NCBI GenBank assembly: GCA_947478845.1
Contig: CANJXC010000010.1
Coordinates: forward strand, 1 to 64,000
Origin: Spirochaetales bacterium
GTDB lineage: Bacteria > Spirochaetota > Spirochaetia > JABEVK01
DNA length: 64,000 nt
Direction of reading: 5' to 3'
The notes under the pieces were generated by a model, which worked only from the letters and a program-made list of their open reading frames with translations, was not told where the DNA came from and searched no databases. Of this stretch, positions 8,142 to 58,580 are shown piece after piece. Each line of letters begins with the position of its first letter. Position 1 is the stretch's first letter. The position numbers and the translations under genes were made by a program.

Positions 8142-8170
8142 AAAAAAAAACCGGCCAAAGCCGGTTTTTC
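8142..8170 (-). terminator. Intrinsic terminator after tRNA-Gln
   Basis: On the minus strand, AAAAACCGGC pairs with GCCGGTTTTT around a four-base loop, followed by a run of T. It lies 19 bases after the tRNA-Gln 3' end and 15 bases before carA. It should end the tRNA transcript. Confidence 0.85.
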
Positions 8171-35059: not shown

Positions 35060-35092
35060 GAGACCAGCTCCCCAGCTGGTCTCTTTTTTTTT
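35060..35092 (+). terminator. Intrinsic terminator of the PHP-M23-PEGA operon
   Basis: Ten-base arms GAGACCAGCT and AGCTGGTCTC around a four-base loop, followed by nine T. A very strong Rho-independent terminator between the coupled gene chain and the PBP1 gene. Confidence 0.93.
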
Positions 35093-42601: not shown

Positions 42602-42643
42602 AAAAAAAAACGGTATGCCTCTGGACGTCGACGGCATACCGCT
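42602..42643 (-). terminator. Intrinsic terminator after the first DUF115 gene
   Basis: Minus strand: arms GCGGTATGCC and GGCATACCGT around a loop of about 13 bases, followed by nine T. It lies 24 bases after the stop of the DUF115 gene at 42667 and ends the lepB-pbp-DUF115 unit. Confidence 0.88.
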
Positions 42644-51426: not shown

Positions 51427-53286
51427 ATGCCCAACGACAAGGATTTTGAGCTCGACGATTTGGAACCTTTCCCCTTTGATGATGTCCCCTTGGAGGGAGA
51501 CTCTGCCAAAGGCGAAGCTTCCGACGAGTTTGGAGTTTGGGTGAAAAGTGCTCCCGAGGATGTAGAACAAGGGATCTCCGGGTCTGCCGCCGACCAGGAC
51601 ATTGACTTTCCTCATCTTGATGACCTACCGGCCTTAGACGACTTTTCTCACTCCGATGATCCGCCCCGCGAATCGGAGTTTCCCAGCCTTGATGATCTGG
51701 ATCACCTTCCTAGTCTGGACCTCACCGACATGGACATTCCTCCCCCCGCCCCAGTAGCGGCGGAACTTGCCGAGGAAGATTTTCTCTCGAGCGAGGAACT
51801 GGCCAGCCTTGACGACCAGTTTGACCTTGTGTCAGTCAGTGCTGAACCGCTCGAGGGCGAAGAGGACCCGCTGGCAGATGATTTCGACACTCTTGATTCT
51901 GGCCCTGGGACAACTGAGGTTGACAGCGAGGGAGAACCGATGTCCCTCGACGACTTTGTGAGCCTAGATGAAGGTCCACAGACCTCTGGAAGTTCTCAGT
52001 TTTCAGCGAAGGCAGTTTCTCCGCAAGGCGCAGACGAGTTTGATGACGATTTCCTCGATATGGAACTGGACATGAATGACGATATCGAAGACCAGGCGCT
52101 GGAAGTTCTGGAACCTGCCCAAACAGCGGCCGAGGCTTCCGATGCCGTTGACCCCGTGACGGAAGACATAGAGCTGTCGGAGTTCGACGGTTTCGACGAA
52201 ATGAGTCATTTTGAGGAGAAGGTGCAACCCGAAGTTCGGGGTGAAACCGCAGAGTTTGACATCGACCTAGACCCCCATGACCTCAGCTTGGGAGCGGTTG
52301 GAGAGTTCGAGGAAACCGGTCTTGGCGACTCACTCGACCCCGACGACCAGAATGACCTCGAAAAGCTTCAGGTTCTGGAAGACGACTTGACGAGCGGCAT
52401 CCGAGGACCGGGACCAGCGGCGCCGATGAGTTCGCTCGCCGCTTCCGGAAGCGACTTGGCTGCGACCATACTCAGCAAGATTGAGCAGGAACTCTCCTCC
52501 ATCAAGAAAGAAATCGCCGACCTCAAAAAAAATCTCACAGGGTACCGACCAGTTGCCCCGTTGGTCGCTGAACCGGAAGACGCCGGTTTACCTGAATTGG
52601 CAGACATTCCCCCTCACCACGAGCACAAAGGCTTCTTTGATGAGGAAGATGACGAGACAATTGCCCTTACCGGTGACGAGCTAGACACACTGCTTCTCTC
52701 GGCTGACATCAGCGAGGCGGAAGACAGCGGGGTCACGCTTGACGAGGATTTGATCGTGACAGACGACGAGGGAAACCTCCCTCCGCTTTCGGATTTTTCG
52801 GCTCCTGAAAACGAGTTCGACTCGTCTCCCGAAGAAGGACATGTGACCGATGAAGAGTTCTTCGCCGGAACTTCTCTCGAGAACGAGGAAGATTCGCTGT
52901 TTGACGAACCAACCGGTGGCGTTCCCGAAAGCATCGAACTCGAAGACGATGATTTCCCCGATGTTCTGGACGGGGATCAAACTGTGGACGTCTTGGGTGA
53001 GGCATCAAACCCTGGAATCACCGACGAAGAGGAAACGGTTTTTGAATCCACGGATGTCGAAGAAACTCCGGTCGCGCCCGCTACTCCGGTTGAAGCTTCG
53101 TCGGCCAGTGCAACTGCCTCACCCGCCAACCTCCCTGAAAGTATGCGCGGTGAGCTAAGGGCGGTTTTGACCTACATGGACAAACTGCTAGTGTCACTTC
53201 CCGACGATAAGATTCAGGAGTTTGCTGAGTCTGAGCATTTCGAAGTGTATAAAAAACTTTTCGAGGAACTGGGGTTGAAAGAGTAA
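51427..53286 (+). CDS. Very acidic, low-complexity protein
   Basis: A 619-residue cytoplasmic protein, strongly enriched in Asp and Glu, with recurring DDLxxLDD, LDDFxxLD and EEDFLS motifs through the first 270 residues (for example DLDHLPSLDLTDMD). One short coiled-coil segment lies at LSKIEQELSSIKKEIADLKKNL (about residues 350-372). The last 55 residues (SMRGELRAVLTYMDKLLVSLPDDKIQEF, then HFEVYKKLFEELGLKE) look structured and may be the conserved part. No known family. GGAG precedes the ATG. It is the first gene of a plus-strand series with the frameshifted gene and two DUF115 genes, so it may be a scaffold for them. Confidence 0.72.
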   Translation: MPNDKDFELDDLEPFPFDDVPLEGDSAKGEASDEFGVWVKSAPEDVEQGISGSAADQDIDFPHLDDLPALDDFSHSDDPPRESEFPSLDDLDHLPSLDLTDMDIPPPAPVAAELAEEDFLSSEELASLDDQFDLVSVSAEPLEGEEDPLADDFDTLDSGPGTTEVDSEGEPMSLDDFVSLDEGPQTSGSSQFSAKAVSPQGADEFDDDFLDMELDMNDDIEDQALEVLEPAQTAAEASDAVDPVTEDIELSEFDGFDEMSHFEEKVQPEVRGETAEFDIDLDPHDLSLGAVGEFEETGLGDSLDPDDQNDLEKLQVLEDDLTSGIRGPGPAAPMSSLAASGSDLAATILSKIEQELSSIKKEIADLKKNLTGYRPVAPLVAEPEDAGLPELADIPPHHEHKGFFDEEDDETIALTGDELDTLLLSADISEAEDSGVTLDEDLIVTDDEGNLPPLSDFSAPENEFDSSPEEGHVTDEEFFAGTSLENEEDSLFDEPTGGVPESIELEDDDFPDVLDGDQTVDVLGEASNPGITDEEETVFESTDVEETPVAPATPVEASSASATASPANLPESMRGELRAVLTYMDKLLVSLPDDKIQEFAESEHFEVYKKLFEELGLKE

Positions 53287-54193
53287 TGGGGCTTCTTGAC
53301 CGGGCCCAGACCCTCAAAGACGACCAAGAAAAAAAAAACCATTTTCAGGCCTGACCTGGAAAGACGTCCTTCTCTACCTTGAGCAACCTCAAACAGCAGA
53401 CGCTTCCGCGGGCCTGGCGGCGCCCATTGTAACTCTGCTCCCCCGGGTGGCCGACTTTCTTTCTTTGGGCACTGGTTTTTTTCTGGTGCACTCGGTGTTG
53501 GCCCCTCAGCTTGTGCTCAAAGCTTGGACTCTGGAAAAAACAGTCCCCGACTTCAGGCTCGAGTTGCCCCCCCCTCTGCGTCTGCGGCTCTCGGCAGGTA
53601 TACCCCAGTTGCTCGGAGGGCCGGAGAAAGCCGCACTGACGGCCTTTGCTTCCCGATTTGCGAGCCAGCCCAGCCTCCCGTTGGCTCTTCCTTTGGTGTC
53701 GGACACCCAGATACTACTCGGAGTCCTCATCCTTGTGGATTCTCTTCCGTTTGACCTGGAAGACGAAGGGTTTGTTTTGGCGTGGACACAACTCAAATAT
53801 ACCTTTCTCCATTCCTTGTTTCCCAAGTCCCGGGCGCAAAGCGCTTCGCCAACCAAACGACTTCAGCAAACGATGGCCAAAGGTCATCAGCTGCTTGCTG
53901 CCCGGATGGAAACCCGCGGGTTAATGCGTTACGCGGAACAGAAAGGCTTTTTCCCGCATAGGGTGAAAATGCTCCTTGTGAGGGCGGTCACAGAATTGGC
54001 AGGTGAACAGGGTGCTGTCGAAGAGATGGGGCCTTTGCTGACCGCCTACTTTGTGCTTCCTGGAAAAATCGACAAAGATCTACTCTGGCACCAAATACTG
54101 GGGGCCTTGATTTGGCCTGAGGGCTACAACCCGCGCTGGGAGCTTACCGTCCTCAGGTCTGCTGCCGACCTCACCCGGTACCAGGGACGCTAA
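53286..54193 (+). CDS. Conserved-looking protein of unknown function, expressed through a -1 frameshift (or broken by a poly-A error)
   Basis: Frame 0 starts at ATG 53286, overlapping the acidic gene stop by one base, and reads MGLLDRAQTLKDDQEKKNHF before a stop at 53354. The -1 frame, open from that point to 54193, continues naturally as PFSGLTWKDVLLYLEQPQTA. The two meet in a run of ten A (53329-53338) that contains the slippery heptamer A AAA AAC (53333-53339) in exactly the right phase. The joined product is 302 residues. The second part shows alternating hydrophobic helices (VLAPQLVLKAWTLEK, VKMLLVRAVTELAGEQG) and a Trp-rich end. A frame-two start at GTG 53447 is possible but would drop 36 residues. 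I do not recognise the family. The DUF115 gene follows after 3 bases. Confidence 0.6.
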
Positions 54194-54196
54194 AAG

Positions 54197-55717
54197 GTGG
54201 AGTTCCGGAGGGAAGATAGTCCCCGGGGTGTGCGGCTGCTGGTCAACGGCAGGTCGCTCTACTCAACCTACGCTCCTGAAAAGGAAGCCGCCACTTGGGT
54301 CGCCACCTTGCAGCTTTCGGAGAACGCGACCTTGTTTCTCGCTGGCGACTTGCAAGGCCATTTGGCGCGGGCCCTCCTGAGTTCTTGGCCTCATCTGCGC
54401 ATTGTCCATCTCTTGCCTTGCGACCAAACTACGACGTCCCACGAGGCCATTTGGTGCTGGTACCCTAGTCAGGAACCTCTGGAGGTTTTCCTGGAACGTA
54501 TTCTTGACCTGACGGGCCCGGCGGACTGTCATTGGCAGGTGTGGCCGGCCTTGGAGCGAGCCGCCCCCGAGGAGACCCTGGCTTGGGCCACGACTTTCCG
54601 CGATATTTACCGCACAGTGCAGGGCTCCTGGCTGACCCGCAAGTTTTCCGGCAAGCGGTGGTGGCAGAACTCGCTGCGCAATGCAGTCGACTGGGAGCGG
54701 CCGAGATTTCCCCGGGCGGGAAGCAAACCAATTGTTGTTGCTGCTTCCGGACCCTCCCTGGGGGATGGATGGGACCAATTGCGTCTTTACCGAAAAGATT
54801 TTGAACTTTGGGCGCTTCCCTCGAGTTTCGAAGCCCTTCGTCTGCGGGGCTTGGAACCAGATGTGGCCGTGACCACCGACGGCGGATTTTATGCCAAGGA
54901 GCACCTGCAACGCCTCAGTGGTGGTTCTGCGGTGGTGCTTTCAGCTTTGTCCGGTTGCAGTGATCCGGTGTTGTCGCTCTCTCCATCGTTGCTGTTCAGC
55001 CAAGGGTTGCCCTGGGAATCTCGCTTGCTGTCGCGCTTTTCAGGGACTCCTGCCCAGGTTCCCAGTCAAGGCACCGTAGCCGTGACGGCCCTCCAGTGGG
55101 CCTTGGCGCTGACCACAGGCCCTGTCCTCGTCGCTGGCCTCGATTTGGCCTTTTTCGACTATCGAGGTCATGTGTCCGGACACACGGTGGACCGTCGATT
55201 GGCGCTGGAGGTCGGTAGAACCAGCCCTTGGGAAACTATGTGGGCTCAAAGGTGCTTTGCACAGGCCACTGTCAGCCTTGGCGGGGGTCAGCGGACCTCA
55301 CCGGCGATGCGAACCTATGCCCTTTGGCTCGGCAGCAAGACGAGGTTTGGGCGACAGGTGTTTCGCTTGGCACCCACAGCGCTGAGCTGGCAAGGCATGA
55401 TTGCCTGCGAATGGGACCAATTAGGCCCCCTGGTGCGCGGTGGTCGCGAAGAAGCAGGGGTGAGCTGGCATTTACCTCCTGGTTCGTGGCCCGATCGCGC
55501 CCAACGGAGGAGGCTCGTGCGACAAACGTTGGAACTCTGGAGGACTGAACTGAGGCGCGGAGAGTTCAGCGCGGTAACCTTGAGGTCATGGGCAGCAACC
55601 TTGACCCCAGAGGCGCTGCAAGAACACCTGACGCAGGCTAAGGACCCGGTAGACCCAAAAATCTCCGACCTTTCCGGCGTGTTAGGCGATTTTCTCGACC
55701 AGCTGGAACTCTGTTGA
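54197..55717 (+). CDS. DUF115 / MptE-like protein (Maf-related), copy 2
   Basis: A 506-residue DUF115 protein. The nucleotide-sugar core is visible as KPIVVAASGPSLGDGWDQLRLYRKDFELWAL, then GLEPDVAVTTDGGF and GPVLVAGLDLAFFDYRGHVSG. The N-terminal 170 residues are a separate helical and beta domain. The start is GTG, three bases after the frameshifted gene, with no strong ribosome site, so it probably depends on coupling. The 3' end overlaps the next DUF115 gene by four bases. By family, a role in glycosylation (flagellin or surface) is plausible; the substrate is not known. Confidence 0.8.
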   Translation: MEFRREDSPRGVRLLVNGRSLYSTYAPEKEAATWVATLQLSENATLFLAGDLQGHLARALLSSWPHLRIVHLLPCDQTTTSHEAIWCWYPSQEPLEVFLERILDLTGPADCHWQVWPALERAAPEETLAWATTFRDIYRTVQGSWLTRKFSGKRWWQNSLRNAVDWERPRFPRAGSKPIVVAASGPSLGDGWDQLRLYRKDFELWALPSSFEALRLRGLEPDVAVTTDGGFYAKEHLQRLSGGSAVVLSALSGCSDPVLSLSPSLLFSQGLPWESRLLSRFSGTPAQVPSQGTVAVTALQWALALTTGPVLVAGLDLAFFDYRGHVSGHTVDRRLALEVGRTSPWETMWAQRCFAQATVSLGGGQRTSPAMRTYALWLGSKTRFGRQVFRLAPTALSWQGMIACEWDQLGPLVRGGREEAGVSWHLPPGSWPDRAQRRRLVRQTLELWRTELRRGEFSAVTLRSWAATLTPEALQEHLTQAKDPVDPKISDLSGVLGDFLDQLELC

Positions 55718-57381
55718 GCCTCTCCCTTTGGATGGCTAATCTGACAGCCCTGGCACGGCGGACCGATTCCCTGAGTGCCGGTTTGCACGCACGTCTGGAA
55801 TCGTTGGGCCCGTGGACAGGCACTTCTCCCCGCTCCCGCAACGGGCAGGAACTTCCTTCGTGCCCACACGGCAGCGGACGCCGGGCTCTCGAATCAGGTT
55901 TTGACGCGGTGGCGGAGGCTCACAGGTGGGCAAATGAGGTCAAGACGGGGTCGGCTCTGATTGTTCTCGGGGGGGCAGGGCCGGCGGTTTGGCTGGCAGT
56001 GCTCGAGCGTAACCCTAGCCTGGTACTTGTCGTCGAGCCTCGTGCCGAGGTGTGGCAAAATCTGTTCACCCTTCGCGATTTCACCGATTGCATAAGCCAG
56101 AGTCATTGGTACGCTGCTTGTGCCGACCCAGATCAGTGGCTTACCTGGATTTCGGGCCGTTATCATCCGCTTTGGGATGGTTCCCTCGAGCTTCATTTTT
56201 GGAGGGCCGCCACCATGGGGGAGGAGCGATGGGAAAGGCATCAGGAGGCTTTTGCGCGCGCCGTGGGTTCTTGGAGCGGCGATTTTTCGACGCAAGCCCG
56301 ATTTGGGGCGCGTTGGTACCGCAATAGTCTGGTCAATTTGTCCTCCCTTCAACCTTTGGGCCGCGGCAACTTGCGCGACAAACTGACCACTGCTCCCGAA
56401 GGCTGTATCGTTGCCGGTGCCGGACCCTCGCTTGAGTTGGCGCTCGCCGACAAGAAAAACCAAACTCTCCTAGCGGGCCGTCCAGGCAACGGCTGGCTCC
56501 TGTTGAGCACCGACACAGCCCTTCCCGCATTTCTCCTGCGCGGCTATACACCTGATCTCGTGCTGTGCCTTGATGGCCAACTTCCCAGCGCTCAGCACTT
56601 CCATTCGCCCCTGCCGCCCGGGCTCCCTTTGTTGGCCGATCTTGCTGCCTTACCACTGTTTCACCGACTAGGACTCAAAGTCCTTCCCTTTTTGTCGGGC
56701 AATCCATTGGGGCCTGTTATCAGGCGGTTTTTTCCAGGTCTTCCTCAACTCGACAGCGCATCGGGAAACGTTTCGGGCCTCGGGTTGGTTTTCTCAGCAG
56801 GCCTTGGCGCCCGCAAGACGCTTCTTTGGGGTGCCGACCTTTCCTATCCGCATGGAAAAGGCTATGCCCGGGGCACTTACCCCTACGCCCTGCAGGGACA
56901 GCGAACCAATCGCTGTTCTCCCCTTGAAACCAGACTCGGTAGCGCGTGCTATGGTGCCACCGACCTGAGAGTGGTGGGAACGGAAAAGCGCTACACTACA
57001 CCCCTCCTTCGGGAGTATCGTGAACGGATGATGTCCCTTTCGGCAGGACTTCGAACCAATCTGAAGGTTGTTACTACGACAGGGTTTGCACCGTTTCCTT
57101 CTGGTTTGGGCTCCCAATTGCCGAACTTCGTCCCCTTCCAGGGCCCCGGTGATGCTTCCGGCTTTCGGTTGCATTGGTCGGAAAGGCTGTCAAATCTCCC
57201 TAGACTTCCGAAAGGAGAACGGATGATGGAGTTTCTCTCTCGTCTGTCTCACGACCAACAGGAGGACTGGCTGGCGCTTTGGCCCTTGGCGCTGGCCATC
57301 CACCGCGTGGAAGGGTCGCAGCCGGACTGGCAAGATCGACTTGTTGAACGGGCGCTTGAGCCTTTCAAGATTGATCTTTGA
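55714..57381 (+). CDS. DUF115 / MptE-like protein (Maf-related), copy 3
   Basis: A 555-residue paralogue. It contains SALIVLGGAGPAVWLAVLERNPSLVLVVEP near the N-terminus and the second core EGCIVAGAGPSLELALADKKN, WLLLSTDTALPAFLLRGYTPDLVLCLDGQ, then LLWGADLSYPHGKGYARGTYP. Its layout is closer to copy 1 (N-terminal Rossmann-like module plus core) than to copy 2. The start is likely at the ATGA-type overlap with copy 2. The tandem pair suggests that the two work on related acceptors or form one complex. Confidence 0.8.
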   Translation: MSLSLWMANLTALARRTDSLSAGLHARLESLGPWTGTSPRSRNGQELPSCPHGSGRRALESGFDAVAEAHRWANEVKTGSALIVLGGAGPAVWLAVLERNPSLVLVVEPRAEVWQNLFTLRDFTDCISQSHWYAACADPDQWLTWISGRYHPLWDGSLELHFWRAATMGEERWERHQEAFARAVGSWSGDFSTQARFGARWYRNSLVNLSSLQPLGRGNLRDKLTTAPEGCIVAGAGPSLELALADKKNQTLLAGRPGNGWLLLSTDTALPAFLLRGYTPDLVLCLDGQLPSAQHFHSPLPPGLPLLADLAALPLFHRLGLKVLPFLSGNPLGPVIRRFFPGLPQLDSASGNVSGLGLVFSAGLGARKTLLWGADLSYPHGKGYARGTYPYALQGQRTNRCSPLETRLGSACYGATDLRVVGTEKRYTTPLLREYRERMMSLSAGLRTNLKVVTTTGFAPFPSGLGSQLPNFVPFQGPGDASGFRLHWSERLSNLPRLPKGERMMEFLSRLSHDQQEDWLALWPLALAIHRVEGSQPDWQDRLVERALEPFKIDL

Positions 57382-57404
57382 GCCACTGTCCGTATAATGG
57401 CAGT

Positions 57405-58580
57405 ATGAACACGGCTGTGACGCGATTGTACGCGCTCTTGGTGGCGCTCACTCTGACCGCTCTGGTGGCATGGGCCGTTACAGACTGGTTTCAGCTTCAA
57501 GAAAAAGCTTCTCTCGGTGCGCAGGCCGCCCTCCGAAAAACGGCAGGGCTCCTCACCGACTGGGCTATAAGTGCGCCCCCACAAGATCCCACGCGTCTTG
57601 CCGAACTCTTCAGATCGAGTTTGGTGAAAGATGCGCACTGGAAAATGTTGCTTCTCACCTCGCCATCCCACGGAACCGAATACTATCGCGGACCCCGCAC
57701 AGACGGTGATCCCGCAACGTCAGTTCCCACGTGGTCCCCCCGTTTTCCTCGGGAACTGCTAACGCAAGTCGACGTATTTCTGCCCGATGGGCAACCTTGG
57801 GTCTTGAAGGGGGTTTATGAGTTCTACACCAATTCTGAAATCCTGAAACTACTGCGGGCCTCCGGGCTGACGCTGTTGGTGCTGGTGCTCCTCACTACGC
57901 TTCTGGTGTTGATTCAGTCAGCGCGCAAAGAGCCCACGCGCGAGCAAGCTTCCGAACCGCAACCAAGTCGAACTCAGAAAACCGATTTCGAAAGCGCCGA
58001 CGACGAGTACTGGTTTGACGATGAGCTGGATCTCGGTGACCTACCCCCCTTGAACTCTGCCCAAGAAGCCTCCGCTGGACCAAGCCTGCTGGCCCCCAGC
58101 GGTCTGAGTTGGGCACACTTTCTGGAACAGCGCCTGAATTACGAACTGGAGCGGTGCGCGGGCAACAATCAGGATCTGACCTTGCTTTTACTGGGAGGAA
58201 CCGACCTGCAGTCAGAAACTCTGTATCTGGCTTTAGCTCAGGAGGTACGGTCGTCCTTTCCCTCGCTAGAGCTCGACTTTGAGACCAAGGATGAAAAACA
58301 TGGGCCCGGAGTTGCCGTGGTGCTGCCAGATCGGAGTTTGGAAACAGCAATGGCCGAGGCCCAGACATTGGTCGGGCGCATTGACCGTCTGTTCCCGCAA
58401 ATCAAACTAGTGGCGGGAGCGGCCTCCCGCGCTGGACGACTCCTCGGTGCCGCCACTGTGATCAAGGAGGCCTCCTCGGCTCTCGGTCGGGCCCGCCACA
58501 GCAGCACCCGAGTGGTTGGCCTGAAAACCGACCTCGACCGCTACCGCGAACATGTTGTCCGCGCTACCGCAAACTCCTAG
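57405..58580 (+). CDS. Membrane protein with decayed GGDEF-like domain
   Basis: A 391-residue protein. Two membrane helices (LYALLVALTLTALVAWAVTDW and GLTLLVLVLLTTLLVLIQSA) flank a periplasmic sensor-like domain of about 110 residues. An acidic linker (DEYWFDDELDLGDLPPLN) and a C-terminal domain with the GGDEF layout follow: LSWAHFLEQRLNYELER, then KHGPGVAVVLPDRSLETA in place of the active GGDEF loop, and SSALGRAR at the end. The catalytic residues are absent, so diguanylate cyclase activity is unlikely. The frame opens 27 bases earlier (TTG), but ATG 57405 starts right before the helix. Confidence 0.7.
   Translation: MNTAVTRLYALLVALTLTALVAWAVTDWFQLQEKASLGAQAALRKTAGLLTDWAISAPPQDPTRLAELFRSSLVKDAHWKMLLLTSPSHGTEYYRGPRTDGDPATSVPTWSPRFPRELLTQVDVFLPDGQPWVLKGVYEFYTNSEILKLLRASGLTLLVLVLLTTLLVLIQSARKEPTREQASEPQPSRTQKTDFESADDEYWFDDELDLGDLPPLNSAQEASAGPSLLAPSGLSWAHFLEQRLNYELERCAGNNQDLTLLLLGGTDLQSETLYLALAQEVRSSFPSLELDFETKDEKHGPGVAVVLPDRSLETAMAEAQTLVGRIDRLFPQIKLVAGAASRAGRLLGAATVIKEASSALGRARHSSTRVVGLKTDLDRYREHVVRATANS

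Follow-up and report, generated by a model that had tools for sequence, protein, structure and literature searches.

Conserved frameshift recoding in ordinary bacterial chromosomal genes is known from few cases (review PMC5009743). In tssM1 of Citrobacter rodentium, proven transcriptional slippage on an A11 run, at about 20%, gives two length variants, both of which are needed, with no stimulatory signals reported (PMC4256274). As at the locus described here, the run lies just before a premature stop and the remainder of the gene continues in another frame, but tssM1 is known from a single species and its run falls late in a secretion gene, whereas ours lies near the N-terminus and is found in 18 families. 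In Shigella spa13 and other type III genes, slippage at A/T runs also comes soon after the start, 58 codons in for spa13; most of the protein is gained by it, and the following gene is affected as well (PMC5009743). Those genes are plasmid-borne, in contrast to the chromosomal spirochaete genes considered here, which have an unrelated product and in which slippage may likewise affect the gene that follows. Like our locus, the dnaX genes of Thermus thermophilus (nine A) and Chlorobi (ten A) are chromosomal, conserve the A9 or A10 run and yield two products, but in Thermus it is the unslipped mRNA that encodes the long form, and the tract lies close to the 3' end, whereas here the unslipped mRNA would usually encode the short form. 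Magnesium chelatase chlD (PMC3711429, PMC9227772), a case reported in Spirochaeta thermophila too, also combines an A-run, −1 recoding and a bacterial chromosomal gene, with a frameshift efficiency that grows with run length (PMC3711429); it is described as ribosomal frameshifting, and the gene differs from ours. Polymerase slippage at A-runs is therefore already known, while this gene and its class-wide conservation appear to be new: the portions available of the literature on DUF115 or on slippage in spirochaetes held no report of it, and an unremarked entry is possible in the 2013 GeneTack survey, which includes ten spirochaete chromosomes.

The locus lies in a 64,000-nucleotide stretch of a Spirochaetales bacterium genome (contig CANJXC010000010.1, positions 1 to 64,000), referred to throughout as the window, and has the following features:

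51427..53286, + strand: acidic low-complexity protein, 619 aa, with a conserved C-terminal tail; stop TAA 53284-53286
53286..53354, + strand: short frame-0 ORF, a 22-aa leader (MGLLDRAQTLKDDQEKKNHFQA) and TGA 53352-53354
53329..53338, + strand: A10 putative slippage tract, followed by CC; one added A in the mRNA would join the frames
53333..54193, + strand: −1 frame protein body (KKKPFSGLTW...), 286 codons and stop
53423..53818, + strand: GAF domain, predicted from a structure model, limits approximate
53849..54190, + strand: degenerate GGDEF-like domain without the GGDEF motif, predicted from a structure model, limits approximate
54197..55717, + strand: DUF115/MptE-like gene 1 (Pfam E 4e-15), starting 3 nt past the long stop
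55714..57381, + strand: DUF115/MptE-like gene 2 (Pfam E 7.5e-7; 29.5 bits, below the 34.6-bit cut-off)

The split gene is real, and its geometry is as the original prediction described it. Its ATG (53286-53288) overlaps the TAA of the acidic gene and frame 0 ends after 22 codons, while the −1 frame stays open between 53300 and its stop (54191-54193), with 285 codons counted from 53336, and continues the protein, leader and −1 body together making a 302-aa fusion. The two frames meet at the ten A's, which are read in frame 0 as GAA AAA AAA AAC, with the heptamer A AAA AAC in phase; the placement of the gene between an acidic protein and two DUF115 genes is borne out by the neighbouring ORFs and by Pfam. 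Upstream of the tract in the window, the −1 frame has no start codon, its first being a GTG at 53447. That expression across both frames is programmed is strongly supported by the comparisons below, and programmed slippage of RNA polymerase on the A10 run is probably the best explanation. The polymerase would add one A at the run in some transcripts; unslipped mRNA would then encode a short leader peptide only (22 aa here, 15–87 aa elsewhere), and slipped mRNA, carrying A11, would join the frames into the 302-aa protein, consisting of the MGLL leader, GAF and degenerate GGDEF-like domain. The tract would thereby determine how much short product is made relative to the full-length one, and it might influence translation of the DUF115 gene 3 nt beyond the long stop.

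No Pfam or NCBIfam family matched the long product of the window, and among 50 homologues the same libraries gave scattered weak GAF/GGDEF matches only. A confident AlphaFold model built from the 50-sequence alignment (pLDDT 86.6, pTM 0.81) folds it as a GAF domain followed by a GGDEF-like domain in which the GGDEF motif is missing. Among the best structural matches in Foldseek are the diguanylate cyclase DcsBIS and PelD (4etx, E 6.9e-5), and in a profile search (hmmsearch) PelD also came first, weakly (E 0.0011). We therefore predict a PelD-like protein of GAF and degenerate GGDEF domains, the domain order and fold being like those of PelD, itself a GAF plus degenerate GGDEF receptor of c-di-GMP; sequence similarity is marginal (E 0.001), and whole-chain TM-scores are low (about 0.3), so the orientation of the domains may differ from that in the matches. 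The neighbours are acidic and DUF115 genes rather than a pel operon, and for this reason we do not file the gene as PelD. Binding of c-di-GMP by the long product is no more than a lead.

Comparison of tract length in relatives recovered the same A-run break both in the family of the window and across the class. Searching with the long product found homologues in two other genomes of the family, at 48% and 31% identity, both with A10 at the same position and the same −1 break. As the long protein reached three genomes only, the tail of the acidic protein was the better probe; it located two further family members, with breaks at A10 and A9, so that the locus, wherever it was found in the family (five members), has a −1 break at A9 or A10. 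Intact homologues without an A-tract, which the original prediction would have taken as a refutation, do exist, but solely in other families. A search of 297 Spirochaetia genomes with the 47 C-terminal residues of the acidic protein, which are strongly conserved, located the cluster in 179, and the gene downstream of the acidic gene was then read in about 150. The A-run break is present in 49 of them, spread over 18 families and 25 genera, and always goes in the −1 direction; the run at the junction is A10 in 44, A9 in two, A12 in two and A11 in one. In these genes frame 0 stops after 15–87 codons, the −1 frame is open for 261–418 further codons, and the leader motif M..GL[LYMF] opens every one; the run does not keep one phase with respect to the start, and the base 3' of the tract varies too, being G in 33. 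Such recurrence of the break across genomes and families means that a built-in slippage switch, rather than an error of sequencing, is almost certain. Many lineages carry the gene intact and tract-free, and slippage is therefore not essential to it; several single-contig genomes examined were in-frame or tract-free. Two loci first counted as broken (L200 and L205) were false, the tract lying past the frame-0 stop and an alternative start reading through. Most of eight loci left outside these classes open straight through from a different start codon, while one (L213) has no long ORF near the start, one (L188) ends at a contig edge and one (L222) contains N's. Loci outside Spirochaetia were mostly unplaceable or had a different gene next.

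Sequence comparisons argue that the tract itself is under selection. When 142 loci are compared by their longest A-run within the first 300 nt, a length of exactly 10 stands out sharply (51 loci), with no such peak in a control window further downstream, and the remaining 130,029 bases of the 54 tract-bearing loci contain no other run of nine or more A's; nor is there a T9 run in those loci. The tract is the sole A10 of the genome in G038, G187 and G020 and one of two in G090, G191 and G151, and is retained in a locus of 71% GC (G018). The frame-0 stop follows soon after it, at a median of 6 codons compared with 15 expected (one-sided p 0.0017, one gene per genus). The run is also kept by genes that encode the full protein in frame 0, as A10 in G013, G038 and G011 and as A11 in G036 and G255; the G013 and G038 loci are 63–65% GC. 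In-frame genes of the AT-rich families f12 and f22 keep it too, where long A-runs are less surprising. A tree of the neighbouring DUF115 protein requires tract bearers to have switched between the broken and in-frame states three times or more, and calls for at least eight changes between tract and no tract; it is a quick tree with long branches, from which the window's own family was left out.

The genome of the window (2.99 Mb, 22 contigs) has five A10 runs in total, a scarcity that, with the recurrence of the break in 49 genomes, makes the junction at one of them more than a coincidence. Another of the A10 runs (L003; G000:C3:151772-151781) closes off a long ORF at its very 3' end, with 1183 nt open upstream and the stop 11 nt after the start of the tract, a position at which slippage would alter the C-terminus of the ORF. 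A third (L007; G000:C22:27794-27803) falls within a stretch open in one frame for 1498 nt before and 842 nt after. The window's three other runs of nine A/T (8142-8150, 35084-35092 and 42602-42610) adjoin inverted repeats and look like ordinary intrinsic terminators.

The original prediction named −1 ribosomal frameshifting on A AAA AAC as the probable mechanism. Its programmed two-frame expression is well supported, but the ribosomal route looks less likely than polymerase slippage on a run of 9–12 A's. Frameshifting on A AAA AAA, A AAA AAG or A AAA AAC would give the same two products from a single mRNA, and several observations fit it: the heptamer is in phase in the window and every A10 contains one, most tracts are followed by G, and efficiency on chlD A-runs, as measured in E. 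coli, rises with run length (PMC3711429). A uniform direction of shift among orthologues is moreover a published criterion for ribosomal frameshifting, whereas slippage orthologues need not hold one direction (PMC3711429). Against polymerase slippage stand the single direction of all 49 shifts, the ribosomal slip sites that any A10 also holds, some upstream Shine–Dalgarno-like 4-mers and the many lineages whose intact gene has no tract. However, errors of transcription at A/T runs are chiefly one-base insertions, commoner than deletions (PMC5574713), and a uniform −1 outcome is for that reason expected under polymerase slippage as well; broken genes share one direction, yet the tract was kept through the broken/in-frame changes on the DUF115 tree.

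Ribosomal slippage needs six or seven A's, but no gene among the loci read is broken at a short heptamer or at any run of fewer than nine, despite AAG and GAG being free to encode Lys and Glu. From local codon usage, the chance of keeping one further AAA codon over 25 genera would be about 1e-9, a rough figure that treats genera as independent and an argument that is only moderate where Lys is mostly AAA, the genome of the window included. That genome has separate tRNA-Lys for AAA and AAG, which counts against the ribosomal route; Thermus, a user of dnaX slippage, likewise has both (PMC5009743). Nor was a conserved or convincing stimulatory RNA structure found downstream (fold z-score mean −0.45, median −0.03), Rfam had no match at the locus, and Shine–Dalgarno elements 9–14 nt upstream showed no convincing excess, with 4-mers in 28% compared with 14.5% of controls and 5-mers in 4% compared with 3% (25 genera). 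The run also persists in in-frame genes of GC-rich genomes, which likewise speaks against the ribosomal route. Polymerase slippage is favoured because some in-frame relatives keep A10 or A11 and neither a short-heptamer break nor a conserved RNA structure was found, and we consider the ribosomal alternative unlikely. What is constrained is the length of the run, nine at least and usually ten, and the RNA:DNA hybrid of bacterial RNA polymerase is 9–10 bp (PMC5009743); the variable phase and following base of the run count for the polymerase too. With its clean signature, usually exactly ten A's and in GC-rich genomes too, this gene offers a comparative test of ribosomal against transcriptional slippage.

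The gene could instead be a contingency locus, in which replication slippage changes the length of the tract and toggles the gene. Homopolymer runs are capable of such switching, and A10, A11, A12 and A13 were all seen, but a contingency locus predicts a mixture of in-frame, −1 and +1 states, whereas one state is common to whole families, none of the 49 broken genes is +1 and 44 of them have exactly A10. The same counts dispose of the suggestion in the original prediction that tract length varies between cells or was misread. Given the conservation of A10 and the scarcity of other runs of nine or more A's, phase variation and error are both very unlikely, the former improbable to a degree that leaves it little weight. 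Sequencing or assembly error, or a decaying pseudogene, would be suspected from the fact that the broken cases of named origin are metagenome assemblies and homopolymers are error-prone; however, independent assemblies repeat the same length, and runs are not simply collapsed, as A11, A12 and A13 were recovered in other assemblies, while the long frame is intact in every case and gene order is kept, leaving this explanation with next to no credibility. The break does suggest that automatic annotation may call the gene a pseudogene or place its start too late. Equally hard to credit is a pair of separate proteins, the ribosome halting at the short stop and re-initiating in the −1 frame, for the closeness of the frame-0 stop to the tract would suit it, but only four of 49 genes offer an ATG, GTG or TTG in the long frame as far as 30 nt beyond the tract, the first −1 start of the window (GTG 53447) is 93 nt past the short stop, and within the window's genus conserved sequence starts right at the tract.

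Returning to polymerase slippage, we infer that in the in-frame genes it would give a shortened form, so that the trait kept by selection may be the mixture of products rather than the offset of frames. A broader reading, which we put forward tentatively and which may well prove too broad, is that of a class-wide, non-mobile transcriptional-slippage switch in which the MGLL leader peptide and the GAF/GGDEF-like regulator both matter, the tract itself is selected, and the rate of slippage also sets translation of DUF115. Under this broader reading some lineages would reach the same mixture from an in-frame gene, because selection would keep A10 whichever product the unslipped mRNA encodes. The locus adds a conserved recoding case from at least 18 families; besides this wide distribution, it is notable in that in-frame genes retain the tract.

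A nascent-RNA hairpin can promote polymerase slippage (PMC5009743). GC-rich inverted repeats occur near the start of the gene in two places, AAGGCCCGAAG...TTCGGGCCTT in G023, which has no tract, and GGAGGGC...GCCCTCC ahead of the A12 in G048 (loci L019, 1641-1710, and L018, first 70 nt of the gene); they are not general here.

The surrounding genes form an uncharacterised spirochaete cluster of acidic, GAF/GGDEF-like and two DUF115 proteins, with a stoichiometry that seems to be under control. The acidic protein is of low complexity apart from its tail, YMDxLLxSLPxxKIxEFAxSEHFEVYKKLFEELGL. The last 47 residues of the protein (53143-53283) are 71–84% identical in good matches within the class, and a sample of 60 genomes from the phylum, already-known relatives included, had them in 51; the segment looks like a docking tail. 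A DUF115-like ORF follows the split gene in all 69 loci with enough sequence, and a second is usual. The window's first DUF115 gene begins 3 nt past the long stop, and unslipped mRNA would consequently leave about 840 nt untranslated before it; translational coupling between the two is possible, and by analogy with spa13/spa32 of Shigella, slippage may tune DUF115 expression. Immediately after both DUF115 genes, an ORF at 57378-58580 gave a weak GGDEF-like match (E 0.44), on the strength of which another degenerate GGDEF protein may belong to the cluster.
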